Shown piece by piece: positions 16,162-64,000 of a DNA stretch of 64,000 nt. The stretch lies in NCBI RefSeq assembly GCF_039543825.1, contig NZ_BAABKM010000001.1, forward strand, positions 496,001 to 560,000, given 5' to 3'. Below the pieces are notes generated by a model. The model saw only the letters and a program-made list of their open reading frames with translations. It made no database searches and was not told the DNA's origin. Made by a program: the position numbers and the translations under genes. The stretch is from Nocardioides conyzicola (GTDB lineage Bacteria > Actinomycetota > Actinomycetes > Propionibacteriales > Nocardioidaceae). Position 1 is the stretch's first letter, and every line of letters begins with the position of its first letter.

Positions 16162-17547
16162 TCAGCCGACGGCCGCCTCGAACGCCGCGGCCACCTCGAG
16201 CAGGAACCGGTCGCGCCCGTGCGGGGCGACGATCTGGATGCCGACCGGCAGGCCCGAGGCGGTGTGGCCGAACGGCACCGAGATGGCGGGGCAGCCGGTG
16301 ACCGTGATGAAGTACGCCGCCCGCATCCAGTCGAGGTAGGTCTCCATCGGCCGGCCGTTGATCGACGTGGGGAACTCCTGGTCGGCCGGGAACGGCGGCA
16401 CCTGGGACACCGGCAGCACGAGGACGTCGTACGCCGTGAAGAACTCGCGCATGCGCTCGGAGAGGGCGGTGCGCTGGCTGTACGCGCGGGCCACGTCGGC
16501 GCCGGTCAGCGACTCACCGGCCCGGATGTTGTCGGCGAGCGACTGCTTGAAGTCGTCGGGCGAGGCGGCGAGCATCAGCCCGAACTTGGCCTGGAAGTGC
16601 CACGCACGCAGGGTGCGGAAGGTGTCGTCGGCCTCGGCGAGCAGTGGGTGGGCGTCCGACACCGTCGCACCGGCGGACGTGAGGACGGCCGCGGACGAGG
16701 CGACGACCTCGGCGACCTCGGTGTCGACCTCGAAGGCGCCACCGAGATCGGGAGAGACAGCGACGCGGAGCCCGGACAGCGAGCCGGCGAGCGGGGGTGC
16801 GAAGCCCGAGCCGGGATCGGTGAGCGCCTGCGGCGCCCGGGGATCGGGCCCGGCCATGACGGACAGCAGGAGCGCCAGGTCGCCGACGTTGCGCGCCATC
16901 GGACCGCCGACGGACGTCGTCTCCCACTGGTTGTAGAGCGGCCACTCCGGCACCCGGCCGAGCGACGGCCGCAGCCCGACCACGCCGCAGAACGACGCCG
17001 GGTTGCGCAGCGAGCCGCCCATGTCGGATCCGTCGGCGAGCGGGACCATCCCGGAGGCCAGCGCGCACGCGGCACCTCCGGACGAGCCGCCGGCGGACCG
17101 GGTCGGGTCGACCGGGTTGCGGGTGAGCCCGAAGACCCGGTTGAACGTGTGCGAGCCGGCCGCGAACTCCGGCACGTTGGTCTTGCCGATCACGACCACG
17201 CCGGCCCGGCGTACGCGCTCCACGATCAGGTCGTCGTGCTCGGCGACGTGGTCGGCGAAGAGCGGGGAACCGTACGTCGTGCGCCATCCCTCGACGCCGT
17301 GGGTGTCCTTGAAGGCGAACGGCAGCCCGTGCAGCGCGCCGACCTCGGCGCCGGACGCGAGTGCCTCGTCGGCGGCCGCGGCGCCCGCGCGGGCACGCTC
17401 CTCGTCGAGCGAGACGATCGCGTTGAGCTCGGGGTTGCGCGCGGCGATCCGCTCCAGGTGCAGGTCGAGCAGCTCGCGCGCCGAGATGTCGCGCCGGCGT
17501 ACGGCGTCGGCCTGGTCGCGCGCGGTCGACTCGACGGAGAGCGTCAC
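16162..17547 (-). CDS. Amidase (amidase signature family)
   Basis: A 461-residue amidase-signature hydrolase that should convert an amide to acid plus ammonia in the cytosol. The Ser-cisSer-Lys triad is visible: Lys near residue 80 in GLPFAFKDT, the glycine-rich AGGSSGGAACALASGMVPLA and the nucleophile region DGSDMGGSLRNPASFCG. TTYGSPLFADHVAEHDD and GKTNVPEFAAGSHTFN are further family landmarks. The GTG at 17545-17547 starts directly before the domain. It is the last gene of the permease-coxMSLG run on the same strand, 94 bases after coxG, which suggests it supplies ammonia from a ring-cleavage product. Confidence 0.92.
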   Translation of the reverse strand: MTLSVESTARDQADAVRRRDISARELLDLHLERIAARNPELNAIVSLDEERARAGAAAADEALASGAEVGALHGLPFAFKDTHGVEGWRTTYGSPLFADHVAEHDDLIVERVRRAGVVVIGKTNVPEFAAGSHTFNRVFGLTRNPVDPTRSAGGSSGGAACALASGMVPLADGSDMGGSLRNPASFCGVVGLRPSLGRVPEWPLYNQWETTSVGGPMARNVGDLALLLSVMAGPDPRAPQALTDPGSGFAPPLAGSLSGLRVAVSPDLGGAFEVDTEVAEVVASSAAVLTSAGATVSDAHPLLAEADDTFRTLRAWHFQAKFGLMLAASPDDFKQSLADNIRAGESLTGADVARAYSQRTALSERMREFFTAYDVLVLPVSQVPPFPADQEFPTSINGRPMETYLDWMRAAYFITVTGCPAISVPFGHTASGLPVGIQIVAPHGRDRFLLEVAAAFEAAVG

Positions 17548-49407: not shown

Positions 49408-51027
<1,620 letters not shown>

Positions 51028-54633: not shown

Positions 54634-54676
54634 GCCGCGACGCTACGACACCGTGGCCGGGCCACCAGCGGCGGGA

Positions 54677-54709
54677 CCGAGCGGATCGCGGCATGTGAGT
54701 GCGTTTCGA
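54677..54709 (+). repeat. Array repeat R1 (right half only, left border)
   Basis: Carries only the right half of the element (CCGAGCGGATCGCGGCATGT then GAGTGCGTTTCG). The left arm is missing; the preceding 40 bases belong to the flanking chromosome. It marks the left edge of the array. Confidence 0.7.
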
Positions 54710-54739
54710 TCGATAGGCCCGGCGGCGGTGGGAGCATCG

Positions 54740-54997
54740 TTGGCTGTGGACGCATGGGAACACGATGGCCGCAAGTTCGAGGTTGTGATGGCCTCGGATG
54801 TCATCAACGATGGGATGGGCCTCGAACTCACAGACCTCGACTCATCCGAGAGTGGCCCCGCCCTTGTCGCGTTCTGGCATGCCGACGGCAGCGGCTTTGA
54901 CTTCGTCGCGCATCACACGGGCACCCTTCCGTTCGCCGTCGTCGAGCGCTTCGTGGCAGCAGCCAGGAAGCGCCTCCCACCCTCTACCGAGTCCTGA
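54740..54997 (+). CDS. Array gene 1: small hypothetical protein
   Basis: 85 residues; the start is TTG 54740 after GGGAG, or GTG 54746 two codons on. The product contains WEHDGRKFEVVMASDVINDGMGLELTD and ends VERFVAAARKRLPPSTES. It is acidic, soluble, without cysteines. No family is recognised. A/T-ending codons (e.g. GAT, ACT, GTT) are more common than in upstream genes. Followed 16 bases later by repeat R2. Confidence 0.6.
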   Translation: MAVDAWEHDGRKFEVVMASDVINDGMGLELTDLDSSESGPALVAFWHADGSGFDFVAHHTGTLPFAVVERFVAAARKRLPPSTES

Positions 54998-55013
54998 GAC
55001 CGCCAGCAGACGA

Positions 55014-55062
55014 CCGCTCATCGGTAGTGCCGAGCAGATCGTGGCAGGGCGAATGTTTCGGG
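55014..55062 (+). repeat. Array repeat R2
   Basis: CCGCTCATCGGTAGTGCCGA followed by GCAGATCGTGGCAGGGCG and ATGTTTCGG. Left arm perfect to consensus in the first 11 bases; the right arm has diverged so that the stem is lost. It lies 16 bases after array gene 1. Confidence 0.75.
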
Positions 55063-55096
55063 GAATCGTGATCGGGCTGGATGCGATTGCGGGAGC

Positions 55097-55501
55097 ATGA
55101 CGCTCATGAGCGAGCCATGCGCCCCGGCATCGTCCACGCACCGTGGGGCGACCCTGGTTTGCAGCCTCCTCACCCTCGGACTGATGAGTTGTGGCACCTC
55201 TGGTCAAGACAGCGGCGAGTCGGACGGCAGCACGGGACTGGTCGCGTTCTGCAGCGTCTATACCGAGCCTCCGGAGGGTGGCGAACGACGGGCGTGGGGC
55301 GAGGCACTCGGCCGCGTTGCGCCACCTACTGAAATGACTAAGGCAGAACGGAACGGCCTGAGCGTCCGGGCGCGGTGGCTGGTGGATGGGCCGACCCTGT
55401 CGTCGCTCCGAGCGAGTCGGTCCGACGTCCAAGCCTTCGACACGTTCGCAGAAGAATCGTGCGGAGACTCAGCGTTCAAACTGGTCGGCGACCAAGGCTA
55501 A
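55097..55501 (+). CDS. Array gene 2: small lipoprotein
   Basis: 134 residues. ATG 55097 follows GGGAGC. The N-terminus MTLMSEPCAPASSTHRGATLV has a signal-like hydrophobic core CSLLTLGLMSCGTSGQ with lipobox LMSC, so it is probably a lipoprotein. The mature part holds two further cysteines (FCSVYTEP, ESCGDSAF) and an acidic composition. Function unknown. Repeat R3 starts seven bases after its stop. Confidence 0.68.
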   Translation: MTLMSEPCAPASSTHRGATLVCSLLTLGLMSCGTSGQDSGESDGSTGLVAFCSVYTEPPEGGERRAWGEALGRVAPPTEMTKAERNGLSVRARWLVDGPTLSSLRASRSDVQAFDTFAEESCGDSAFKLVGDQG

Positions 55502-55508
55502 TCGCCAT

Positions 55509-55557
55509 CCGCACATCGGTAGAACCGCGCACCGTCTGCGGCATGAGCGGACGTTCC
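55509..55557 (+). repeat. Array repeat R3
   Basis: CCGCACATCGGTAGAACCGC, CACCGTCTG, then CGGCATGAGCGGACGTTCC. Arms CCGCACAT and ATGAGCGG pair with one mismatch. Aligns without gaps to R22. Confidence 0.85.
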
Positions 55558-55574
55558 TCCGGCAGCATGACTGC

Positions 55575-55811
55575 ATGACTGAGGGCGGCAATGTGACTAT
55601 CTCTCTGACCTCTGATGAGGCGCTGGTGCTCTTCGATCTGCTGCACCGTTGGGAGGACGCCGGTCGATTGAGTGCGCCGCAGCACAAGGGCGAGCAAGTG
55701 GCCCTGTGGAATCTGTCCACCCTGTTGGACCAGGAACTCGGAGAGCCCTTTGGTTCCGAGTACGGCGACCTCGTCGCAGTGGCAAGAGACCGACTCATAC
55801 CCTCCGAGTAA
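55575..55811 (+). CDS. Array gene 3: small soluble protein
   Basis: 78 residues from ATG 55575: MTEGGNVTISLTSDEALVLF, then DLLHRWEDAGRL and LWNLSTLLDQELGEPFGSEY. The LTSDEALVLFDLLHRWED start resembles small actinobacterial proteins found near immunity or toxin genes, unassigned. Codon use has many A/T third positions. Repeat R4 begins five bases after the stop. Confidence 0.7.
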   Translation: MTEGGNVTISLTSDEALVLFDLLHRWEDAGRLSAPQHKGEQVALWNLSTLLDQELGEPFGSEYGDLVAVARDRLIPSE

Positions 55812-55815
55812 CTAC

Positions 55816-55864
55816 CGTCCATCGGCACGATCGAGCGGATCGCGGCAGATGAGCCTGTTCCGGT
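55816..55864 (+). repeat. Array repeat R4
   Basis: CCGTCCATCGGCACGATCGA, then GCGGATCGCGGCAGATGAGC and CTGTTCCGG, 49 bp, beginning five bases after the stop of array gene 3. Closest of all copies to the consensus in the central GATCGAGCGGATCGCGGCAG. Confidence 0.85.
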
Positions 55865-55918
55865 GCGGGCGGAGTCCGCCCTGGCGTGGTGCAGAAAAGG
55901 ACGGCGGCGACGGCCAGG

Positions 55919-56299
55919 CTAGATGCGGTTTCGTCTCAGGGACCCGCAGAGACGCAGTTGGTATGTGCCGATGAACCCCACCAGCGCGCGCGCTGCCAGA
56001 GCGTTCCCCCAAGCAGTCATCATCCAGACAAAGGTGAAGGTAGTACCTACGAGCCAGGACCCAGAGTCGGGATCAGCACCGGACAGGACGGCCACCAGGA
56101 CGGGAAGTACGTACGCGGGCGCGATGGCAACAACGCCGAGGGGAAAGGTCAGAATAGGCAGGCCAAGAAATGCGCCGGCGTTGGTGTTCGAGACGGGCGA
56201 GGCGTAGGCAGTGACGGCGACAGCGGCCACGACGGCGACGTAGCACCAGCCGAGCCACGCGAGCCTCCACCACGGGCGGACCTTCTCCGACTTCGTCAC
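55919..56299 (-). CDS. Array gene 4: small membrane protein
   Basis: 126 residues with four hydrophobic segments (LAWLGWCYVAVVAAVAVTA, FLGLPILTFPLGVVAIAPAY, VLPVLVAVLSGA, TTFTFVWMMTAWGNALAARALV). Starts at GTG 56299 (VTKSEKVRPWW). Integral membrane protein, unknown role. Opposite to the preceding array gene, with R4 and the 3' end of this gene close together. Confidence 0.7.
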   Translation of the reverse strand: MTKSEKVRPWWRLAWLGWCYVAVVAAVAVTAYASPVSNTNAGAFLGLPILTFPLGVVAIAPAYVLPVLVAVLSGADPDSGSWLVGTTFTFVWMMTAWGNALAARALVGFIGTYQLRLCGSLRRNRI

Positions 56300-56367
56300 A
56301 ACGACGATCTTCGCGCAGAGCGCCCGCCGTTGGCCGTCGAAAGAGCGCGGCGGTGCAAACCGACCAG

Positions 56368-56422
56368 TTCGCTACGCGCCAGATCCGGGCGAGCGTAGCG
56401 GCCTCGACGCGGCAGGTTCGGT
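56368..56422 (+). repeat. Array repeat R5 (diverged)
   Basis: A strongly diverged copy: stem CGCTACGC (56370-56377) with GCGTAGCG (56393-56400) around GCCAGATCCGGGCGA, then GACGCGGCAGGTTCGG. The sequence has moved away from consensus but an 8-bp perfect stem is retained with new bases. Confidence 0.5.
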
Positions 56423-56432
56423 CGTCAGAATG

Positions 56433-56657
56433 TCATCGACGTCGCGGCTCGCGGTGGTAGTAGACGGTCATCGTGAGGTCGTCCTCGCCGTCGGTCACCG
56501 CAGAACTGAACGTCAGGTCTTGTACCTGCACATCTCCGAGGTCATCCAAACTGTTGGCCATATGGCGTAGCAGCGCAGCCACATCGCCCTGCCCTTCACC
56601 AGTCGGGTTCGACTGCGAGAAGTGCAGGACGGTCCATTCGCGGGCCTCATCGTTCAC
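56433..56657 (-). CDS. Array gene 5: conserved small protein
   Basis: 74 residues from GTG 56657: VNDEAREWTVLHFSQSNPTG, EGQGDVAALLRHMANSLDDLGDVQVQDLTF and a C-terminal DGEDDLTMTVYYHREPRRR. The pattern hFSQSNPTGEGQGDVxALLRxxAxxIDxLGDVxVxDITF is one I recognise from small conserved actinobacterial proteins, without known function. Soluble. Confidence 0.78.
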   Translation of the reverse strand: MNDEAREWTVLHFSQSNPTGEGQGDVAALLRHMANSLDDLGDVQVQDLTFSSAVTDGEDDLTMTVYYHREPRRR

Positions 56658-56690
56658 GTCAGCAGCCTCTCAGGCGGATCGCTGACCTGT

Positions 56691-56739
56691 GCGCTCATCG
56701 ATAGGTCTGCGCATCGGATCGCGGCGTGAGCGGACGTTT
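56691..56739 (+). repeat. Array repeat R6
   Basis: GCGCTCATCGATAGGTCTGC, GCATCGGATCGCGGC, then GTGAGCGGACGTTTG. CGCTCA pairs with TGAGCG. It separates array gene 5 (leftward) from array gene 6 (rightward). Confidence 0.82.
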
Positions 56740-56746
56740 GTCGTGC

Positions 56747-56973
56747 ATGATCAGTGCCGTGATCGGCTCGATCCGGCGGTGGCTGCGACGTTCAGATGCC
56801 CGTCTGTCGCCGCGCCCGCACAACTGTCCCGCGTGTGGTCACAACTGGGGCGAGCACGGCTTAGACAACGACGTAGACGGCGTTTGCGGGAGTGCGCGTA
56901 TGAGATCGAGCACGGCCTTCGTTCCAATGAGGAGCCCGGCTGTCGGCTATCACCTCATGCCCGTCGCGACTGA
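56747..56973 (+). pseudogene. Array gene 6: zinc-ribbon protein with a frameshift
   Basis: The first frame from ATG 56747 encodes MISAVIGSIRRWLRRSDARL then NCPACGHNWGEHGLDNDVDGVCG, and at that point the other frame continues as ECAYEIEHGLRSNEEPGCRL and stops at 56973. Joined, CPACG...GVCGECAYEIEHG is a four-cysteine zinc ribbon with the usual tail. One G is missing in the run GGGAG (near 56888), so the gene is frameshifted, or the sequence has an error. The uncorrected first frame runs to 57019. Confidence 0.65.
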
Positions 56974-56984
56974 GCGAAGCGGCT

Positions 56985-57033
56985 CCGCTCTTCGGCAGAA
57001 CGCACTATCAGCGGCATAAGAGTGCGTTTCGGA
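56985..57033 (+). repeat. Array repeat R7
   Basis: CCGCTCTTCGGCAGAACGCA, CTATCAGCGG, then CATAAGAGTGCGTTTCGG. Both arms carry a T:A exchange relative to the consensus (TCTT and AAGA instead of TCAT and ATGA), keeping the pair. Confidence 0.85.
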
Positions 57034-57071
57034 TGGGCCTGTGGTTCGGGTAGACCTGACACAGTTTGGCT

Positions 57072-57515
57072 ATGACCGCCGAGTTCCGCATGGGTTCGAA
57101 TGACACCGAGCATCTGTCCATCACGGTGCAAGGTCGAGAGCATGCTGGCGCGGACGACTACTGGGATGGCAACTGGGTCGTCTCCACCATCTCCGTGGCA
57201 GCTGGTGGCTTCACTGGTCAAGTTCGGGCGTCGCTCCGTATGGACGAGATCCACCGCTTCAACGAGGGACTGAAGTTCCTCAACCAGAACCTCTTCGGTG
57301 CAGCAGTGCTCGAAAGCATGGAGCACTGGATCACCCTCACGGTGAAGGCAGAATCCCGAGGTCAGATCGAGGTCGTGGGTGAACTGACGGACGGAGCGGG
57401 CGGCGGCAACGTCCTGACGTTTGAGTTGGCTGAGGTGGACCAGACCTATCTGGCGAGTTGGATCAGCAGCCTGGACGACATCGAAAAGGCCTTCCCGGTG
57501 ATCGGCAAGCCCTGA
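57072..57515 (+). CDS. Array gene 7: WapI-like immunity protein
   Basis: 147 residues from ATG 57072 (TTG 57066 possible). The sequence FRMGSNDTEHLSITVQGREH then DDYWDGNWVVSTISVAAGGFTG, LRMDEIHRFNEGLKFL and ESMEHWITLTVKAESRGQIEV resembles WapI-type immunity proteins with the WDGNWLxxxxxxxAGxFxG core. Those protect against polymorphic tRNase toxins; no toxin gene is in the window, so this is an orphan. Assignment by resemblance. Confidence 0.7.
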   Translation: MTAEFRMGSNDTEHLSITVQGREHAGADDYWDGNWVVSTISVAAGGFTGQVRASLRMDEIHRFNEGLKFLNQNLFGAAVLESMEHWITLTVKAESRGQIEVVGELTDGAGGGNVLTFELAEVDQTYLASWISSLDDIEKAFPVIGKP

Positions 57516-57518
57516 GCC

Positions 57519-57570
57519 CCGCTCGCTCTTCGGCAGTTCCGCGCGCTGTCAGCGGCAAGAGCGAGCGTTC
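57519..57570 (+). repeat. Array repeat R8
   Basis: The strongest stem in the array: CGCTCGCTCTT (57520-57530) with AAGAGCGAGCG (57557-57567), 11 perfect base pairs around CGGCAGTTCCGCGCGCTGTC AGCGGC. Starts three bases after the stop of array gene 7. As in R7, TCTT/AAGA replaces TCAT/ATGA. Confidence 0.88.
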
Positions 57571-57829
57571 ACTCGTAGCCCGTGGCGGCCACGATCATCT
57601 CGCCGAACAGTCGCCAGGTGGGTCGCTCCTGGTCGCCGCCGCCAACGATGCGAGCATCCGCGAACGCCGCGAGGCCGTCGAGGAAGCGATCGAGGGTGCC
57701 GTTCTCCCACTCGGCTTCGCCGCCTGTGCGGAAGTCCTCCAAGGCGGCCTGGACGAGGTCGGCGAAGTCATCGCGGCTGACGACATCGGCACTCTCAGCG
57801 TCGGCGGCCCTACCCGTTTCGTGCGTCAC
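57569..57829 (-). CDS. Array gene 8: DUF7660-like small protein
   Basis: 86 residues from GTG 57829: VSRDDFADLVQAALEDFRTGGEAEWENGTLDRFLDGLAAFADARI, then ERPTWRLFGEMIVAATGYE. The pattern SRxDFxxFVxxLxxDL...EWENxTLxxFLExLxAW and WRLFAxxLxAAxxYE is that of a small family I associate with DUF7660, often beside toxin-immunity loci. Its stop lies at the end of R8. Confidence 0.7.
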   Translation of the reverse strand: MTHETGRAADAESADVVSRDDFADLVQAALEDFRTGGEAEWENGTLDRFLDGLAAFADARIVGGGDQERPTWRLFGEMIVAATGYE

Positions 57830-57860
57830 CCGCGCATCGTGTCATTGCAAGTACTCGGGC

Positions 57861-57913
57861 GCCCTCACATCGGCATGAGCGGATACACACCTCGCGGTAG
57901 AAGCGGACGTTGT
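57861..57913 (+). repeat. Array repeat R9
   Basis: CCCTCACATCGGCATGAGCG, GATACACACCTCGCGG, then TAGAAGCGGACGTTG. Contains both a left GGCATGAGCGG and a right GAAGCGGACG element. Between array genes 8 and 9, both leftward. Confidence 0.72.
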
Positions 57914-57934
57914 AAAGGGACCAGCAGCGTGCGG

Positions 57935-58426
57935 TCAGGCGGGGTCGTCTGCGGTTGGGACATTGATCTCGCGGAGGATCTCGGCAGCCGCAGCCGCGAT
58001 CGTGGGATTCTCGTCCGTCACGCGGGCCTTCAACTCATGCAGGCCGTTCTCCGGCGTGATCCAGTCGTAGCGGAGGGCGTTCTCGATCGTCTCGATCATG
58101 CGCTCACGGGTGTAACCATCAGGTGCGGTCGCGAAAGCTTCCACAATCAGACGCCAGCCGACACCATCTGCGCGCTTTGCGAGTGCATCGACGGCGGCGA
58201 TGAAGAAGGCGATGTACGGATCAACCGGGTCATGTGCCAGCAAGACCAGACCTCGGTCAACGTCCTCGATCCCGGCGAACAGGGCTAAGCAACGCGCGGC
58301 GATGCAACGGTCGGAGTAGGACTCGCTGGTGGCGAGCGCGAGGAGCGCCCGACGGGCATCGTGCTGTAAAGCCTCCGGTGTCCCGGCTGGCGGCGCGTCT
58401 GCAGTCACTGGGCGATTATCGTGCAC
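57935..58426 (-). CDS. Array gene 9: HEAT-like helical protein
   Basis: 163 residues from GTG 58426 (VHDNRPVTADAPPAG). Repeated helical pairs are visible: HDARRALLALATSESYSDRCIAARCLALFAG, VDPYIAFFIAAVDALAKRADG, GWRLIVEAFATAPDGYTRERMIETIENALRYD and LHELKARVTDENPTIAAAAAEIL, the periodicity of HEAT/armadillo repeats. No specific family. The start codon is three bases from repeat R10. Confidence 0.68.
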   Translation of the reverse strand: MHDNRPVTADAPPAGTPEALQHDARRALLALATSESYSDRCIAARCLALFAGIEDVDRGLVLLAHDPVDPYIAFFIAAVDALAKRADGVGWRLIVEAFATAPDGYTRERMIETIENALRYDWITPENGLHELKARVTDENPTIAAAAAEILREINVPTADDPA

Positions 58427-58428
58427 AT

Positions 58429-58473
58429 CCGCTCATCGGCATGACCGACCGGAGTGCGGCAGATGAGTGCGCG
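58429..58473 (+). repeat. Array repeat R10
   Basis: CCGCTCATCGGCATGACCGA, CCGGAGTGCGGCAGA, then TGAGTGCGCGGG. Left arm perfect; the right arm pairs with a two-base bulge. Touches the start of array gene 9. Confidence 0.82.
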
Positions 58474-58613
58474 GGCTGAGTTGAGCCCACCCTGGCCCGG
58501 CTCGAACGGGCTGCCTCCCTCTCCGTGTTGCAGGACGGGCGGTCGGGGTGAACCGACCCGCCTAGGGCAGGGTCGTCGCCGAGAGTAAGCCCAGGAGTGC
58601 GCTGTTCACCTCT
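58474..58613. other. Noncoding stretch in the array
   Basis: 140 bases without a plausible gene; short GC-rich hairpins (for example GGTCGG with CCGACC) occur but no recognisable RNA. Confidence 0.4.
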
Positions 58614-58645
58614 CGGTTTCACGGACTGCGGCAGATGAGTGCGTC
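58614..58645 (+). repeat. Array repeat R11 (partial)
   Basis: Right part only: CTCGGTTTCACGGACTGCGG then CAGATGAGTGCGTCGAGC. Left arm diverged or lost. Confidence 0.6.
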
Positions 58646-58656
58646 GAGCTGGGCTC

Positions 58657-59067
58657 TCAACGCGGGAGACTTGTTTCGACCTTGCACCACGTTTCGTCGC
58701 CTTCAGGACGAAGCCAGATCTCCCGAGTTGAGCCGTCGTCGTGGTCGCCGAGTAGGGCGAAGGCCTGACCAACTGGCTCGCCGAGACCTATGTTGACCGT
58801 GGCGATCGGCAACTCGAAGCCCCGCCATGACACCTGCCAGTCCCGAGCCGGGTCGTCGTAGATGAGTACCTGCGCTGTGACGAGGTCGGAGGATCTGCCG
58901 GGTCCGGTGTCGAGGGTGGCCCGAACGGACGCCCCTCGGCACGTGCTCTCGCCTGTGTTCGGTCGGTCAGCAGTTGGACTTCTGAGATCGAGTACCCCGC
59001 CGATCAGGCCGACGACGAGGACGCACCCCACGAGGAGTCCCAACCGGAGTCGTCCACGGTTCGTCAC
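58657..59067 (-). CDS. Array gene 10: membrane-anchored or secreted protein
   Basis: 136 residues. An N-terminal helix (LRLGLLVGCVLVVGLIGGVL) precedes an extracytoplasmic domain with cysteines STCRGASVRATLD and WCKVETSLPR, and VLIYDDPARDWQVSWRGFELPIATVNIG. Unknown family. On the opposite strand to its left neighbour repeat. Confidence 0.66.
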   Translation of the reverse strand: MTNRGRLRLGLLVGCVLVVGLIGGVLDLRSPTADRPNTGESTCRGASVRATLDTGPGRSSDLVTAQVLIYDDPARDWQVSWRGFELPIATVNIGLGEPVGQAFALLGDHDDGSTREIWLRPEGDETWCKVETSLPR

Positions 59068-59100
59068 GCTCGAAGACTAAGTGAGGGCCCGGTTCGCGTC

Positions 59101-59148
59101 GTTCGGAACTCAGCAGATCAGCTCGCTCAACGCGGCAGATCCGGTCGC
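59101..59148 (+). repeat. Array repeat R12
   Basis: GTTCGGAACTCAGCAGATCA, GCTCGCTCAACGCGGCAGAT, CCGGTCGC. Same orientation as the other copies although both flanking genes are leftward. Ends four bases before the stop of array gene 11. Confidence 0.72.
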
Positions 59149-59151
59149 TAG

Positions 59152-59418
59152 CTACGGGTTGATATTGCCGATCGGGTAGTTCCGGTCCTCGGGGGAGTGC
59201 GCACACGCCCCGGCATAAAACGTAGCCCGTGCCGAAGCGTTCTCGCGCTCGACTCCCGCCTTCTGCATCACGGCCTCCCGCTGCGTGGACGTCATGTCCA
59301 GCAGGTCGCCGCAAGTGGTGTCCCAGCCCTGATTCGGACTCGGATCCCAGTTCACGAACCAGACGCCTATCGACACGGCGATGAGCAAAACAACCGCGCC
59401 GATCACCACACGCTTCAC
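59152..59418 (-). CDS. Array gene 11: small membrane-anchored protein
   Basis: 88 residues from GTG 59418 (VKRVVIGAVVLLIAVSIGVW), a single N-terminal helix, then an outside part with CGDLLDMTSTQREAVMQKAG and CAHSPEDRNYPIGNINP. The pair of cysteines suggests a disulfide. TTG 59433 five codons earlier is a possible start. Unknown function. Confidence 0.66.
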   Translation of the reverse strand: MKRVVIGAVVLLIAVSIGVWFVNWDPSPNQGWDTTCGDLLDMTSTQREAVMQKAGVERENASARATFYAGACAHSPEDRNYPIGNINP

Positions 59419-59483
59419 TATTCCGCCGTCCAATAGACACCACAGCCCAAGCGATCGAATCGTGCCACGTACCCGGCTGATGC

Positions 59484-59528
59484 ACGCTCACTGACACGAG
59501 CGCACCGCGGCATGAGCGGACGTCCGCC
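59484..59528 (+). repeat. Array repeat R13
   Basis: CGCTCACTGACACGAGCGCA, CCGCGGCATGAGCGGACG, TCCGCCGA. CGCTCA pairs with TGAGCG. Between divergent array genes 11 and 12. Confidence 0.82.
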
Positions 59529-59559
59529 GACCGCACGCCCAGGCCCGTAGCCTCACTGC

Positions 59560-60033
59560 ATGCTCCCGGATCGGCACACCGATGAACTCACGATTGACGA
59601 CCTCGGACCTGGCTGGGAAGAAACAAAACGAGCCCTGGACGCCGTCCAAGCGGACCTGTCCCGGACCGTCCCAGGCGCGCCGAGACTTCTCCTGCTCTGG
59701 CGCAACGCAGACCCGACCCGAGCCTCCAACGAGGCTGACGTGCCGGACGGACGCTGGGCGTACATCGGCAAGGCACGCGATTGGTACTTCGGCGCAAATG
59801 GCGGCTTCGCTCTGCCGCGCGAGTACGCCAACGCAGTACAGGCGATCGCGTCTGACGTGTCCGACGCGGTCGTGGATACCCTGCTCGGCTATTACGCCTA
59901 CTGGCCGCATTGCCCGGACGACGACTGCGCACTCGAGGTCCGCCTCGACGCGGAGCGACGGTGCTGGTGGTCATGCCGTGCAGGCGACCACAACGTCGGC
60001 GAGGTCGGGCACCTGCCCACACCAGCGAGTTGA
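59560..60033 (+). CDS. Array gene 12: hypothetical protein
   Basis: 157 residues from ATG 59560 (MLPDRHTDELTIDDLGPGWE), acidic, soluble, with APRLLLLWRNADP and GRWAYIGKARDWYFGANGGFALPREYA and a C-terminal CPDDDCALEVRLDAERRCWW. The cysteines may bind metal. I do not recognise the family. More A/T at third positions than in core genes. Confidence 0.68.
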   Translation: MLPDRHTDELTIDDLGPGWEETKRALDAVQADLSRTVPGAPRLLLLWRNADPTRASNEADVPDGRWAYIGKARDWYFGANGGFALPREYANAVQAIASDVSDAVVDTLLGYYAYWPHCPDDDCALEVRLDAERRCWWSCRAGDHNVGEVGHLPTPAS

Positions 60034-60044
60034 CCGCCCACGTC

Positions 60045-60098
60045 CGTCCAGACATCGGCAGATCGGAGAACCATCAGCGGCATGAGAGTGCGTGGTTC
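60045..60098 (+). repeat. Array repeat R14
   Basis: CGTCCAGACATCGGCAGATC, GGAGAACCATCAGCGG, CATGAGAGTGCGTGG. Begins 11 bases after the stop of array gene 12 and ends just before the start region of array gene 13. Confidence 0.8.
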
Positions 60099-60122
60099 GT
60101 TCCGGCGATGCATCCTTGTTTC

Positions 60123-60524
60123 ATGGCAGCAGGAGTGTTGCGTCCGGAGGACATCAACAGCGCTGAGGTGCAGCTCGGCGGCGTCCCGTTCCCGGGTGAA
60201 TATCGCGACTGGCTGCTCGCGACCAACGGCCATGAGGCCTGGTTCGGCGAAGTCTTCGTGATGTTCTACTCGCTGGATGATGTCGTCGCGGTCACGCAGG
60301 CCGCCGAGCCAGACGAGCGATTGCCTGGCCTGTTGGCGTTCGGTTCCGATGGATGTGGGGAGCTACTTGCCTTCGACCTCCGCAGGACACCAGCACCCGT
60401 CATCTTGGTCAACACCGTCTCGGCTGGTTGGCACGAAGGCCTGTTCCAAGCGCCCTCGTTCAGTGCCTTCATGGCCCAGAGAGACGCATCCGAGCCCTTC
60501 CGTTGGGAGGAGCCGTACGTCTGA
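60123..60524 (+). CDS. Array gene 13: SMI1/KNR4-like (SUKH) protein
   Basis: 133 residues from ATG 60123 (ATG 60108 possible). VQLGGVPFPGEYRDWLLATNGHEAWFGEVF, FYSLDDVVAVTQAAEPDE, LPGLLAFGSDGCGELLAFDLR and SFSAFMAQ are the order of motifs in SUKH (SMI1/KNR4) proteins, many of which are immunity proteins of toxin systems. No partner toxin nearby. Repeat R15 begins right after its stop. Confidence 0.78.
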   Translation: MAAGVLRPEDINSAEVQLGGVPFPGEYRDWLLATNGHEAWFGEVFVMFYSLDDVVAVTQAAEPDERLPGLLAFGSDGCGELLAFDLRRTPAPVILVNTVSAGWHEGLFQAPSFSAFMAQRDASEPFRWEEPYV

Positions 60525-60569
60525 TCCGGGCGCGAGCGAGCGCGAACAGCGGCAGATGCGGACGATCTC
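60524..60569 (+). repeat. Array repeat R15
   Basis: TCCGGGCGCGAGCGAGCGCG, AACAGCGGCAGATGCGGACG, ATCTCG. Directly abuts the stop codon of array gene 13. Right arm consensus-like, left arm diverged to a GCGAGCG-rich sequence. Confidence 0.72.
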
Positions 60570-60603
60570 GTGCTCGATGCGAGCAGGACGAGGACCTCGC
60601 GTG

Positions 60604-60650
60604 GTCGGTAATTCGACTTCGAGGCAGACAATCTCGATGAGCGGCTACGT
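60604..60650 (+). repeat. Array repeat R16 (weak)
   Basis: GGTCGGTAATTCGACTTCGA, GGCAGACAATCTCGATGAGC, GGCTACG. Resembles the consensus mainly in GGCAG and ATGAGCGG. It follows R15 after only about 35 bases with no gene between. Confidence 0.45.
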
Positions 60651-60658
60651 CGGGGCGC

Positions 60659-61225
60659 CTAGGACAGATCCTGGCCGGCGTGGCTCCGCTCCCTTGCTGG
60701 CGGCCGCGCGGGAAGGCTCGGCCCACGAGCTGCCCACCAGATGCACGCCACTGCAGCTGCAGCAAAGACGACCGACGCGGCGACCAGGTGCCACATCATG
60801 TCCCGCACCCAGTGGGGCGAGGATGAATTCGGAAACTCGAAGTAGAACGATGCCGGAGACAGCGCGTTCGCCCCGATGACGGCCACGCATGCGAGCACTT
60901 GGGCAAAGGCGTCGGGGCGCGCGCCCAAATGACCTGATCGCACCGCGAGCACAGCAAGCACCGTCACGGCCAAGAGCACGCAACCCCGCTCCAGGAGGAA
61001 TTCAGGGGGAAGGAGGAGTGGGTCGGCTAGTTGTGCATCCCAGTACGGGGCGAGGCGGACTGCCTGGCGTGCCCAGATCCAGGCATTCGTGAAGCACGCT
61101 AGGGCCGCGATACTGGTGAGGATCCGCACGGCAAGCCCTTGTGGACTTCGTCTCTGCACCTCGTCACCGTAAGGCACTGCCGACGGCTCGGTTCCAGACT
61201 TCCGGCAAGTGCGAGGCCCCGTCAC
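60659..61225 (-). CDS. Array gene 14: membrane protein
   Basis: 188 residues with four hydrophobic helices (ILTSIAALACFTNAWIWA, GCVLLAVTVLAVLAV, VLACVAVIGANALSPASFYF, LVAASVVFAAAAVACIWWAA). The first ~30 residues are polar; a later start is possible. Unknown family. Confidence 0.66.
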   Translation of the reverse strand: MTGPRTCRKSGTEPSAVPYGDEVQRRSPQGLAVRILTSIAALACFTNAWIWARQAVRLAPYWDAQLADPLLLPPEFLLERGCVLLAVTVLAVLAVRSGHLGARPDAFAQVLACVAVIGANALSPASFYFEFPNSSSPHWVRDMMWHLVAASVVFAAAAVACIWWAARGPSLPARPPARERSHAGQDLS

Positions 61226-61238
61226 GCCCGCAGACTAG

Positions 61239-61267
61239 CCGCCCGATCATCGGCAGATCCGGACGTT
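61239..61267 (+). repeat. Array repeat R17 (short form)
   Basis: CCGCCCGATCATCGGCAGAT then CCGGACGTT. The middle of the element is missing so that the left ATCGGCAGATCC joins directly to GGACGTT. Ends at the stop of array gene 15. Confidence 0.72.
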
Positions 61268-61486
61268 CTAGGTTCGGCGGTGGTATCCGTACTTCTCCGG
61301 ATTCGCCAAGACCGAGTCCACGGTGGCAGCGGCGCTCTCGTCGCTCATCGCGACGCGTGTGAGTAGCTGCACCGCGTGATCCCTGTTGCCTGCGTGGATC
61401 GCGGCGTCGAACTGCGCGGCCAAGCCCGCAGTGGAGAGGCGTTCGTTGACGGTCATGCCGCCGAAGTTCGGCTGTTGTCCACTCAC
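61268..61486 (-). CDS. Array gene 15: small helical protein
   Basis: 72 residues from GTG 61486 (VSGQQPNFGGMTVNERLSTA), then GLAAQFDAAIHAGNRDHAVQLLTRVAMSDESAAATVDSVLANPEKYGYHRR. Helical, soluble. The pattern FDAAIxxGDRxxAVxLLxxVxLxxxxAxxTVDAILANPxKYG is one I associate with small immunity-like proteins. Stop abuts R17. Confidence 0.66.
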   Translation of the reverse strand: MSGQQPNFGGMTVNERLSTAGLAAQFDAAIHAGNRDHAVQLLTRVAMSDESAAATVDSVLANPEKYGYHRRT

Positions 61487-61661
61487 GAATTCACACTAGT
61501 GGCGCAGGTCGGAGCTCACGCCGAAATCAAGGCCCACACGCGACCGTGTCATCGGGAGGAGCGGCCACCAGGCGCGTCCAGCAGACGGCAGAGGGATTCA
61601 CCCTCACCGCAGCAGATCAGGATGTCTATGCGGAAACGTGCAAACGAGCCCCGAGCCGCAC

Positions 61662-62309
61662 TCAGGACCGAATAGAGGCAAGAAAATCGGGTGTGAACCC
61701 CTGCCCTGTCTGCGGCTCGTACCCCACCACAGCAGTGACCACACGCCGAACGAACTCGATCTCCCGTTGGACTTCGCCCCATCGCTCGTCCTGCTCGACA
61801 TCACCTTCATATTTGAGGTCGATTGCCTCGAAAATCTGTGAAACGGCCGTGACTGCGAAGTCGACTCCCCAAGCGACCGCGGCGAGTGCAGCTGAGTACG
61901 CAGCTACGGTCTGAGGACGGTCGAAGTCATCGGGTCCGTCTTCTCCTTCGTTGTGGTTGAGCGGGCTGAGGAGGTACTCGGCGATAGCTTGAGAGAGCGC
62001 GTAATGCTGCGATCGGTCACCGGCGAGGAACTTCCACACGTGCTGCAGGTGGATCTGCCACTTCCTGCTGGGCTCGTTCTGCCATTCGGTCAAGTGGTCC
62101 GTGACCCGATAAGTCTCCGCTGCCGCGCTCGCGGCGACGGCGATGGTCGCGTCGGCTCGCCGTCCGCCCGCTCGAACCCGGGTCAGCTCGGCGCGGACCC
62201 ATTCCTCCAGTTCAGCAACTACGCGAATCTCGCGCTGCAGCCGGGATTCCCCCGTACGTCCGAACATGGCTCCGAGCGTGCCAGACCGACCTGGCTTGCG
62301 CGCGCTCAT
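61662..62309 (-). CDS. Array gene 16: hypothetical protein
   Basis: About 215 residues from ATG 62309 (MSARKPGRSGTLGAMFGRTG); ATG 62267 (MFGRTGESRLQRE) has GGAG close by and may be the true start. Helical, with LQREIRVVAELEEWVRAELTRVRAGGRR, WQNEPSRKWQIHLQHVWKFLAGDRSQHYALSQ and AVAWGVDFAVTAVSQIFEAIDLKYEGD. No family recognised. Its upstream end overlaps repeat R20. Confidence 0.66.
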   Translation of the reverse strand: MSARKPGRSGTLGAMFGRTGESRLQREIRVVAELEEWVRAELTRVRAGGRRADATIAVAASAAAETYRVTDHLTEWQNEPSRKWQIHLQHVWKFLAGDRSQHYALSQAIAEYLLSPLNHNEGEDGPDDFDRPQTVAAYSAALAAVAWGVDFAVTAVSQIFEAIDLKYEGDVEQDERWGEVQREIEFVRRVVTAVVGYEPQTGQGFTPDFLASIRS

Positions 62310-62349
62310 CAGTAGTTCCGCACCGTCAGCTGCAGATCCGGATGAATGG
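62301..62349 (+). repeat. Array repeat R20
   Basis: GCGCTCATCAGTAGTTCCGC, ACCGTCAGCTGCAGATCCGG, ATGAATGG. Between divergent array genes 16 and 17, overlapping the first codons of gene 16 if ATG 62309 is used. Confidence 0.78.
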
Positions 62350-62378
62350 GTGTCGAGTGGCGTGGGCACGACTCACGC

Positions 62379-62576
62379 ATGGGTTGGCGTAGAGACTTGA
62401 ACGGGCCGGCGGCCCTGATCCAGTTCGTCATTCTCGGACTTGCCGTGATGTTGGTCGGGCTGGCCGGAGTGTCTGGCTCTTGGGGCGACGCGCCGGGGAC
62501 TCTCCCCTTCTCAGCACTGTTGAGCGTGGTCGGCCTGCTGATGAGCCTCCTCGGTCTGCGGCGGCTCCGGCGCTAA
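62379..62576 (+). CDS. Array gene 17: small membrane protein
   Basis: 65 residues from ATG 62379 (MGWRRDLNGPAALIQFVILG) with two helices (IQFVILGLAVMLVGLAGV and LPFSALLSVVGLLMSLLGL) and a basic tail RRLRR. Unknown role. R21 begins five bases after its stop. Confidence 0.66.
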   Translation: MGWRRDLNGPAALIQFVILGLAVMLVGLAGVSGSWGDAPGTLPFSALLSVVGLLMSLLGLRRLRR

Positions 62577-62580
62577 GGCA

Positions 62581-62629
62581 CTTCGCGCATCGGCAGATCC
62601 GAGCTGATCGCGGCAGATGCAGATGCATC
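62581..62629 (+). repeat. Array repeat R21
   Basis: CTTCGCGCATCGGCAGATCC, GAGCTGATCGCGGCAGATGC, AGATGCATCC. Very close to the consensus in its centre. Begins five bases after the stop of array gene 17. Confidence 0.85.
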
Positions 62630-62644
62630 CGACGTGACTGCAGA

Positions 62645-62923
62645 ATGGCGTCCGTGACCGAGCACCTGGCTGACCGTGGCATCCCGTCGAACCTGCAGTC
62701 GTATGTCTGTCTCGAGGTATTTCGCGGCGAGCGCCCCGTGCTTCTCGTCAGTCGCGAGGACGGCGACTGGTGTTTCATTTGTGGTGAAGGGCATCCCGAC
62801 GACCCTGCCTTCTACCGCGTTGCCGGGATCGGCCATCCGGTCGGCGACGATCTCACGCTTGCCGAGGTGCTTGACCTCGATGCCGACGAGGAGGCCGAGC
62901 GCGCGTTCGTCGGTGGACCTTAG
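62645..62923 (+). CDS. Array gene 18: small hypothetical protein
   Basis: 92 residues from ATG 62645 (GTG 62654 possible). SNLQSYVCLEVFRGERPVLLVSREDGDWCFICGEGHPDDPAFYRVAGIGH includes CxxCGxGH-like WCFICGEGHPDD, then DLTLAEVLDLDADEEAERAFVGGP. A recurrent conserved family in actinobacterial accessory regions, function unknown. Confidence 0.72.
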   Translation: MASVTEHLADRGIPSNLQSYVCLEVFRGERPVLLVSREDGDWCFICGEGHPDDPAFYRVAGIGHPVGDDLTLAEVLDLDADEEAERAFVGGP

Positions 62924-62982
62924 GTCCGTTCGCGCTTGTAGGGGTCTTGGCGAAGAAGCGCTTTTCTCTGGCCGGCACGCCC

Positions 62983-63031
62983 CCGCTCATCGGCAGTTGC
63001 GCTCACCATCAACGGCATGAGCGGACGGGGC
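62983..63031 (+). repeat. Array repeat R22
   Basis: CCGCTCATCGGCAGTTGCGC, TCACCATCAA, then CGGCATGAGCGGACGGGGC. Arms CCGCTCAT (62983-62990) and ATGAGCGG (63017-63024) pair perfectly over 8 bp. Confidence 0.88.
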
Positions 63032-63035
63032 TGCT

Positions 63036-63221
63036 TCAGCCGGTCGGCGTCTTCCACATAAACGCCCCGATGAGGCTCGCGATTGATCCCGCGAACGCCG
63101 CCACAGCACCTGCTCTTCCCGCAGCGCTTCCCGTGTCTACCGCAAGAACCACCACTGAGCCGAACGCCAAGAGCAGCCCTCCACCGAGGAACAACATTCT
63201 TCCCAGTGGCCACGGGCTCAT
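63036..63221 (-). CDS. Array gene 19: small membrane protein
   Basis: 61 residues from ATG 63221 (MSPWPLGRMLFLGGGLLLAF) with two helices (FLGGGLLLAFGSVVVLAV and AVAAFAGSIASLIGAFMW). Ends WKTPTG. Unknown function. Flanked by R22 and R23. Confidence 0.66.
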   Translation of the reverse strand: MSPWPLGRMLFLGGGLLLAFGSVVVLAVDTGSAAGRAGAVAAFAGSIASLIGAFMWKTPTG

Positions 63222-63243
63222 GGCAGCAGGCTATCCAATCGCC

Positions 63244-63276
63244 CGTCCGCTCATCGGCATGTGAGTGCGTCGGGAC
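63244..63276 (+). repeat. Array repeat R23 (short form, right border)
   Basis: CGTCCGCTCATCGGCATGTG then AGTGCGTCGGGAC. Left arm joins directly to the right ATGTGAGTGCG; the middle is missing, as in R17. Last copy before the HNH gene. Confidence 0.78.
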
Positions 63277-63283
63277 AGTCGGC

Positions 63284-64000
63284 CTAGCACCGGCGGTGGA
63301 AGTTGATCCTGCCGTCGGCTTGATGGGTGGTCTCGTACGTCGGGTCGTGGGCTCGGGCGTGGTGGCGGGGGCAGAGCAGTCCGCCGTTGGCGAGGTCAGT
63401 GTTGCCGTCGTCGGCCCAGCGGATCCAGTGATGTCCGTGGCACATCCAGGGTGGCCAGTCGCACCCGTCGGTGACGCAGCCGCCGTCTCTGATGCCCAGG
63501 GCGGTGAGCTGGGCCTTGGTGAAGAACCGTCTGGCACGGCCGACGTCGAGGACCTCGCTCTTGCCGTTGAGGACGACGGGCAGGATCCGGGCGGTGCACG
63601 CGAGACGTCTTACCTGGCTCGGGCTGATCTTCTCGCCGGTGTCGAGGACACCTGCCTTCTCGAGTCTTCCGGTCAACACGTCGAGATCGATGTGGACCAC
63701 GATGGTGGCGTCGGCGCCGCCGACCTTGGGCAGGTCCTTCGCACTGATGCGTTCGATGAGCTCGGCGAACGCTCTGCCCATCCTCTCGGGACCCGGGCGG
63801 CGTTCGATCCCGGCGCCGTGGGTGGCGGCCTGGTGCTTGGGTGCGGCAATCGCCAGGAGCATCTTCTTGAGCATCGCGGCCTGCACGGTCGGGAGGGTGA
63901 ACCGGGCGTGGGTCTTGCCGTGGCCGTCGTCGGTCATCGTCAGCCGCATCGCTTGGGCGGCTTTGGCCTCTTCCTTCTCGAGGAGGTCAGCCTCGTGCTG
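63284..64000 (-). CDS. DUF222-HNH endonuclease, 5' end beyond the window
   Basis: C-terminal 238 residues of a DUF222/HNH protein; the frame stays open to the window edge. The DUF222 part has HARFTLPTVQAAMLKKMLLAIAAPKHQ and ARILPVVLNGKSEVLDVGRARRFFTKAQLTAL; the HNH nuclease motif is CVTDGCDWPPWMCHGHHWIRWADDGNTDLANGGLLCPRHHARAH. Such proteins are numerous in nocardioids and are the coding part of the mycobacterial 13E12 repeats, which serve as phage integration targets. Adjacent to the array's right border. Confidence 0.92.
   Translation of the reverse strand, partial: QHEADLLEKEEAKAAQAMRLTMTDDGHGKTHARFTLPTVQAAMLKKMLLAIAAPKHQAATHGAGIERRPGPERMGRAFAELIERISAKDLPKVGGADATIVVHIDLDVLTGRLEKAGVLDTGEKISPSQVRRLACTARILPVVLNGKSEVLDVGRARRFFTKAQLTALGIRDGGCVTDGCDWPPWMCHGHHWIRWADDGNTDLANGGLLCPRHHARAHDPTYETTHQADGRINFHRRC

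Follow-up and report, generated by a model that had tools for sequence, protein, structure and literature searches.

Array of putative mobile gene cassettes in Nocardioides conyzicola, bounded by two-box sites to which a XerC/D-like recombinase is linked in related genomes

Integrons carry one-gene cassettes with one oriented site each, and a fixed break point splits this site between the front and the back of the cassette. In the integron attC site, the R box (GTTRRRY / RYYYAAC) is located at the crossover. The dif modules of Acinetobacter (PMC13141974) are located on plasmids, are bounded by single pdif sites (XerC-6bp-XerD) in two orientations and are attributed to the host XerCD. A comparable arrangement occurs in a stretch of 64,000 nucleotides from Nocardioides conyzicola (contig NZ_BAABKM010000001.1, positions 496,001 to 560,000; referred to as the window), in which positions 54661-63271 hold 19 sites, all on the + strand, between about 19 small unrelated genes. 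The preliminary description of this DNA had reported about twenty elements of the same orientation across 8.6 kb and about half of the enclosed genes reading leftward; both statements agree with our count, in which 9 genes read rightward and 10 leftward (our own choice from the list of open reading frames, ORFs). Comparison with related arrays makes it probable that these positions hold mobile gene cassettes in an array, which would be moved at the GCGGCA box of the site by a clade of XerC/D-like tyrosine recombinases. The system is a gene-cassette platform similar in outline to the integron, yet by the criteria tested it is not an integron.

The site consists of a left arm (CCGCTCA), box 1 (TCGGCA), a spacer, box 2 (GCGGCA) and a tail of four variable positions followed by roughly CGGACGTT. 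A full site usually spans 43-49 bp and contains both boxes. The previously given size near 49 bp thus applies to full sites but not to all 19, as two (61243 and 63247) are of a short 25-bp form with left arm, TCGGCA and tail (one box), and three further ones are partial or degenerate. Among 406 aligned matches of at least 14 bits, which were not selected on the boxes, per-position conservation was 92-98% in box 1 and 97-99% in box 2 (the latter over 367-377 matches). Spacer length was measured in 177 full sites that had been selected for near-intact boxes; it was 14, 16 or 18 nt in 152 of them and even in 162, which possibly reflects a symmetric inner stem. A scan for the short form also catches many full sites, and its count of 168 was not used. 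No GTTRRRY/RYYYAAC boxes were seen by eye in the aligned sites, in line with the preliminary description, which had called them not consistently present, and the tails often end in CGTT without a consistent RRRY after it. Tandem half-sites with a spacing of about 34 bp occur inside an array of N. psychrotolerans (L196:13646-13776 and 17095-17258).

As the consensus fold of the first 14 sites gave no base pair, a sequence-only site model was used throughout. With filters off, the 14-site model yielded 19 matches at E<=0.1 in the window (14 of them its own training sequences), all on the + strand within 54665-63266 and none elsewhere. A 103-site profile gave 19 matches at E<1 in the array stretch, again all on the + strand, plus one weak match (9.4 bits) at 49821. 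When the 150 best candidates of the whole genome (4.96 Mb) were scored with the 14-site model, 27 had E<=0.1; of these, 15 are located in the window array, 10 at six further places that were treated as array loci, and 2 (about 17 bits) are isolated. The search of relatives that had been proposed for the consensus detected sites in 81 of 147 same-genus genomes (E<=0.001), and further actinobacterial families contain them as well. Among 296 genomes sampled across the class, 8 had a match at E<=1e-4; four of these 8 belong to other genera, and one is the window genome. Across 97 fetched loci (1.64 Mb), the 103-site profile matched 408 places at 14 bits or more and none in the reversed sequences; these loci were mostly fetched for holding sites, training sites included, and the count is informative on the form and orientation of the sites but not on how frequent they are in genomes. 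Four or more sites of at least 16 bits were present at 30 loci, of which 26 were strictly one-stranded; the median distance between neighbouring sites across the 30 loci was 521 bp. Relative to the site, 81 genes were oriented forward and 110 in reverse among 191 clear ORFs in 246 cassettes (rough caller).

Inside the arrays of relatives, a tyrosine recombinase of about 305 amino acids (aa) is encoded. In an all-against-all comparison of 28 loci it fell into the most widely shared ORF cluster and was located within arrays in five loci of five genomes; the cluster spans 7 loci, its other members being joined by chaining of unrelated ORFs. The 147 same-genus genomes contain 14 near-full-length members of this clade (at least 73% identity; one with an internal stop), a few fragments and one decayed copy, and the next distinct family starts at 49% identity. 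Residues R160, K186, H250, R253 and H276, which together with the nearly invariant Y285 we take to be the catalytic residues, are invariant in 40 aligned clade members. The best relatives by sequence and fold are XerC/XerD and simple tyrosine recombinases of the Brujita type. For five members, the nearest NCBIfam models were XerC, XerD and the general Xer model at 104-128 bits, far below the XerC and XerD equivalog cut-offs of about 330 bits; unlike housekeeping copies, the clade enzymes are linked to arrays. Matches among solved structures by sequence were led by XerD, and those by fold were led by archaeal Xer and the Gp33/Brujita phage integrase, the fold matches coming from a moderate AlphaFold model (mean predicted local distance difference test score 72.7, predicted template modelling score 0.51) that is cited for fold neighbours only. 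IntI4 from the PDB aligned by sequence only at query residues 218-294.

Presence of the enzyme and presence of sites were associated. Within flanks of about 1.5 kb, sites at E<=0.1, some of them weak (down to 12 bits), were found at 11 of the 14 near-full-length clade members and at 2 of 15 next-nearest recombinases (at most 49% identical; Fisher p=0.0007). At the genome level, 16 genomes encode a clade enzyme or a fragment of one, and 14 of these have sites, versus 67 of the 131 others (Fisher p=0.007). Starting from the enzyme alone, a scan of named genomes gave at least 79 loci. The 47 judged to be near full length were selected manually for use, and the other 32, which are mainly fragmentary or distant, were set aside. 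With a site profile trained on same-genus loci only, 40 of the 47 had a site of at least 12 bits in the fetched DNA, compared to 0 of 47 for reversed sequences. All 11 Nocardioides/Pimelobacter loci had sites but overlap the training genomes; in the independent part outside these two genera, sites were found at 29 of 36 loci, and 58 of 64 sites were oriented opposite to the enzyme. The hosts included Micropruina, Tessaracoccus, Knoellia, Terrabacter, Humibacillus, Serinicoccus, Nocardia, Actinoplanes, Actinomadura and Planotetraspora.

The borders of shared cassettes were determined in 11 pairs with at least 85% identity over at least 150 nt. For 13 of the resulting 22 homology ends, a site was present no more than 40 nt away in each of the two copies. 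A stricter filter, under which homology had to come as close as 12 nt to the cassette edge on the left or 3 nt on the right, left 7 ends to be scored. At the right ends (4/4), identity was 0.89-1.00 in the 27 nt before box 2 (0.39 in random site pairs) and 0.25-0.67 in the tail after it (random 0.54), while at the left ends (3/3) it was 0.21-0.71 in the spacer before box 2 (random 0.46) and 0.83-1.00 in the tail. At all 7 ends the shared sequence reached the 6-bp GCGGCA box and diverged there. As identity breaks at box 2, each tail moves together with the gene that follows it, and the left arm, box 1 and spacer move with the preceding gene. A crossover in the middle of the site had also been considered and was dropped after the column-level comparison pointed to the GCGGCA box. 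The strongest pairs were found in G012 (a 334-bp unit, 99.7% identical in two arrays, with right-hand sites of the short form in which the box reads TCGGCA), in G118 (94%) and in P. simplex (96%). The recombinase cassette itself is also shared, with 98% identity between G064 and G096 and 93% between Humibacillus and Terrabacter (L105/L144 and L180/L207). Shared gene-plus-site units with breaks inside the repeat and a linked tyrosine recombinase, which the preliminary description had named as support for a gene-capture array using a site different from attC, are thus both observed in relatives, and its inference is strengthened.

We propose that a cassette has the order GCGGCA plus a tail of about 12 nt, gene, left arm CCGCTCA, TCGGCA box and spacer (mostly 14, 16 or 18 nt), so that two neighbouring cassettes would jointly form one site. 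The dedicated recombinase encoded inside related arrays would recombine two sites within the 6-bp GCGGCA box. Recombination between two sites of one array would excise a one-gene circle, and recombination of the circle with any site would insert the cassette. The uniform orientation of the sites would follow from their asymmetry, and as genes occur in either direction, each cassette probably has its own promoter. On the question of duplex versus folded-strand recombination, the arms pair best in a symmetric register and the spacer is mostly even, yet no arm covariation was found (z -0.3 and -0.2 for arms of the same site and of the same cassette; 0.7 to 1.0 within length classes).

As in integrons and clusters of attC sites lacking an integron integrase (CALINs), cassettes hold one gene and one site each, the sites share one orientation, and the tyrosine recombinase is encoded in cis in some genomes while arrays are orphans in others; the break is fixed as well, with part of the site at the cassette front and most of it at the back. 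In integrons, the primary site attI is located beside the integrase; here, some loci, e.g., G021, G012 and G096, have a short one-box site past the 3' end of the recombinase gene. The attC sites of integrons are recombined as a folded single strand and conserve structure more than sequence; the sites here combine the symmetric register and mostly even spacer described above with a strongly conserved sequence. Integron cassette genes lack promoters of their own, mostly share one direction and are read from the common promoter Pc, whereas gene direction is free here, and the recombinase gene is itself one of the cassette-like units of the array. As in the Acinetobacter dif modules (PMC13141974), gene modules would be moved by Xer-type enzymes, and a 6-bp crossover region would lie between two arms, but here the arrays are chromosomal, the sites have two boxes and as a rule one orientation, and a dedicated recombinase is linked. 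We consider it likely that Actinomycetota possess a second, independently evolved gene-capture platform in the niche that integrons hold in Proteobacteria, with its own recombinase clade, a two-box site with crossover at GCGGCA, genes in either direction, the recombinase as a cassette, many orphan arrays and horizontal transfer across families. If so, the cassette strategy evolved more than once, the origin of many small unknown actinobacterial genes could be explained, and a new recombinase-site pair would be available to test. No description of this cassette system was found among the papers listed by a search of the open-access literature, with subscription papers and preprints outside its range.

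Several observations weigh against this interpretation. For nine of the 22 homology ends, no site was detected nearby in at least one of the copies: 5 were near a site in one copy only, and 4 were inside both cassettes away from detected sites. An example is the pair formed by an L108 cassette (11799) and an L297 cassette (4598) of G117, which are 98% identical over 1206 nt and have one border inside both cassettes where no site was detected. Such ends may be due to sites that have decayed or escaped detection, or to other processes. In less similar pairs (70-85%), the border is less sharply defined. Three of the 14 clade loci had no site at E<=0.1 in the flank of about 1.5 kb; on a wider look, G116 has many sites within about 9 kb and G067 one at about 4 kb, but 20 kb of G032 yielded no more than a 10-bit candidate. 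In Nocardioides/Pimelobacter, site direction relative to the enzyme is mixed (73 opposite, 23 same). The clade recombinase is missing from 67 of the 81 site-bearing genomes, among them G118, the genome with most sites (24). Other tyrosine recombinases (C1:1402938 and C1:3918237) are encoded about 3 and 9 kb from the arrays of G118. The window genome itself has only three PF00589 matches at E<=1e-5 (154, 151 and 28 bits), none near an array, and the upper two are taken as the host Xer pair. A genus-wide search with the gene at 55575 gave 2 distant homologues, neither of them near a site, and evidence for past movement of the window cassettes comes mainly from one pair (the L028 cassette). Overall, the cassettes appear to be mobile as judged from their sequences.

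A true integron remnant, that is, a CALIN of degenerate attC sites moved by an IntI integrase, would likewise have an oriented site for each small gene, and the dyad symmetry of the site is also in its favor. This reading is, in our judgement, extremely improbable: no IntI above cut-off was found in any of the 20 genomes searched (best 83.5 bits, cut-off 265), the linked recombinases (five members) reach only 48-54 bits to integrase_gron (TIGR02249) and do so best over the C-terminal part, and neither attC boxes nor arm covariation were seen, with the break in GCGGCA. IntI has a specific insertion in its catalytic domain (PMC8138268). We give equally little credence to dispersed intergenic repeats resembling REP (repetitive extragenic palindromic) elements or terminators, which would mark the ends of genes and not move them. 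The sites are indeed intergenic, palindromic and multi-copy, but they remain same-stranded whatever the gene direction, break in the box and are linked to a recombinase in other genera. In addition, unlike REP elements and bacterial interspersed mosaic elements, which are dispersed genome-wide and unrelated to mobile units, most good matches in the window genome were found in arrays or small clusters. The possibility of a genome-wide REP unrelated to gene boundaries, raised in the preliminary description, is therefore not borne out.

The DUF222-HNH nucleases deserve somewhat more attention, as they might drive the arrays by cutting at the short site, with copying or shuffling by homologous repair, or their gene copies might serve as recombination hot spots. 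Five of the seven array loci of the window genome (window 63284-64000, L028, L029, L030 and L035) abut such a gene with its 3' end facing the array, and the genome holds 33 DUF222-HNH matches, 16 of them with a 431-aa frame. A short site is located just past the stop codon in three of the five loci (window, L028 and L029). These nucleases were accordingly the first suspect as mover and were demoted since only 5 of 20 array loci in other genomes have a DUF222- or HNH-type neighbour, in varying orientation. Moreover, the recombinase-bearing genome G138 has no DUF222 match, and homologous repair does not predict breaks limited to a 6-bp box; we regard this explanation as improbable. At L032:7336-8607, another HNH gene without a DUF222 match borders the array by its 5' end. 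About as improbable is a scenario in which the sites serve phage-type integrases of the sister family for chromosomal attachment and successive integrations have left the arrays behind as debris. The next-nearest proteins do include integrases of temperate Arthrobacter phages (members of the sister family, 44-46% identical among the matches listed), and of 108 phage records matched, 60 are from Gordonia. Two sites are also present beside one sister-type recombinase in G114 (L142). However, a unit comprises about one small gene, many genera have the clade enzyme within arrays of many sites, and sites were found at only 2 of the 15 sister-type loci. The two array-type sites in L142 adjoin a 43%-identical recombinase, and perhaps phages use array sites as targets. 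Relatives of the recombinase are abundant (7352 proteins at E<=1e-40 among 7999 candidates scored, sister families probably included), with two distant ones on viral contigs and one, at 42.5%, on plasmids. The phage-labelled, unverified contig MT837522.1 (52.6% GC) carries a 92.7% identical recombinase fragment (L334, 6021-6593); its best site candidate reaches an unconvincing 2.6 bits, and it lacks exact terminal repeats in the range of 20-199 nt.

The reading of the window as a cassette array moved by a clade recombinase was further compared with its own genes and flanks (Table 1). Homologues of 5 of the 19 window genes were found in 306 fetched loci, and all five were flanked by sites on both sides: in L028 of the same genome (one side being a short site), in L196 of N. 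psychrotolerans, in L301 of another family, in L098 of P. simplex and in L094 of G118. The fetched loci are array-rich, and hence two genes were searched genus-wide. That at 61268 had 3 homologues in other genomes, 2 of which have a site on either side, weakly so in one case (14 and 12 bits). The gene right of the array is retained in twelve relatives. None of the 10 that were fetched has the array, the 11 cassettes tested or a DUF222 gene of this type within about 16 kb; a single isolated site occurs in this region in G141 (20.2 bits) and in G030 (12.8 bits). The same gene content and order in all relatives, which the preliminary description had named as evidence against a cassette array, was accordingly not observed. 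The left-flank genes were not found within about 16 kb in these 10 relatives, and left-flank synteny was unusable. In keeping with the earlier remark that no integrase was in view, the PF00589 search revealed no clade recombinase in the window genome, and the window array is therefore an orphan, by analogy the counterpart of a CALIN. The enzyme may have been lost or be supplied in trans, or the array may no longer be mobile.

Table 1. Sites and genes of the array in the window (positions within the 64,000-nucleotide stretch).
Feature	Position	Strand	Remark
Site 1, left end of array	54661..54705	+	GCGGCA box at 54688
Cassette gene, 83 aa, no Pfam	54746..54997	+	
Site 2	55014..55058	+	
Cassette gene, 134 aa, lipoprotein-like	55097..55501	+	90%-identical cassette (506 bp) in L028, same genome, beside DUF222-HNH gene
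Site 3	55509..55555	+	
Cassette gene, 78 aa	55575..55811	+	59% homologue within N. psychrotolerans array (L196)
Site 4	55815..55859	+	
Cassette gene, 126 aa, membrane-like (by eye)	55919..56299	-	
Cassette gene, 74 aa	56433..56657	-	67% homologue between two sites in array of another family (L301)
Site 5	56691..56738	+	
Cassette gene, 90 aa, no Pfam	56747..57019	+	
Site 6	56985..57028	+	
Cassette gene, 147 aa, WapI-like immunity family (PF24716)	57072..57515	+	
Site 7	57523..57569	+	
Cassette gene, 86 aa, DUF7660 (PF24693)	57569..57829	-	
Site 8	57863..57911	+	
Cassette gene, 163 aa, HEAT-like (25.3 bits, under Pfam cut-off 27.7)	57935..58426	-	
Site 9	58429..58473	+	
Site 10, right half only	58622..58644	+	
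Cassette gene, 136 aa	58657..59067	-	33% homologue in Pimelobacter simplex array (L098), opposite direction relative to sites
Site 11, degenerate	59110..59151	+	
Cassette gene, 93 aa	59152..59433	-	
Site 12	59485..59524	+	
Cassette gene, 157 aa	59560..60033	+	
Site 13	60048..60094	+	
Cassette gene, 133 aa, SMI1/KNR4 (SUKH-1, PF09346)	60123..60524	+	
Site 14, weak left arm	60530..60570	+	
Cassette gene, 188 aa, membrane-like (by eye)	60659..61225	-	
Site 15, short form (CCGATCA-TCGGCA-GATCCGGACGTT)	61243..61267	+	
Cassette gene, 72 aa	61268..61486	-	66% homologue with a site on either side, genome G118 (L094)
Cassette gene, 202 aa	61662..62270	-	
Site 16	62302..62344	+	
Cassette gene, 65 aa, membrane-like (by eye)	62379..62576	+	
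Site 17	62583..62627	+	
Cassette gene, 92 aa	62645..62923	+	
Site 18	62983..63029	+	
Cassette gene, 61 aa, membrane-like (by eye)	63036..63221	-	
Site 19, short terminal form (CCGCTCA-TCGGCA-TGTGAGTGCGTC)	63247..63271	+	just past 3' end of DUF222-HNH gene
DUF222-HNH gene, right array border	63284..64000	-	runs past window end; role uncertain

Two of the window cassette genes, the WapI-like gene at 57072-57515 and the SUKH-1 gene at 60123-60524, belong to families with immunity-type members, and arrays of this kind may stock immunity genes.

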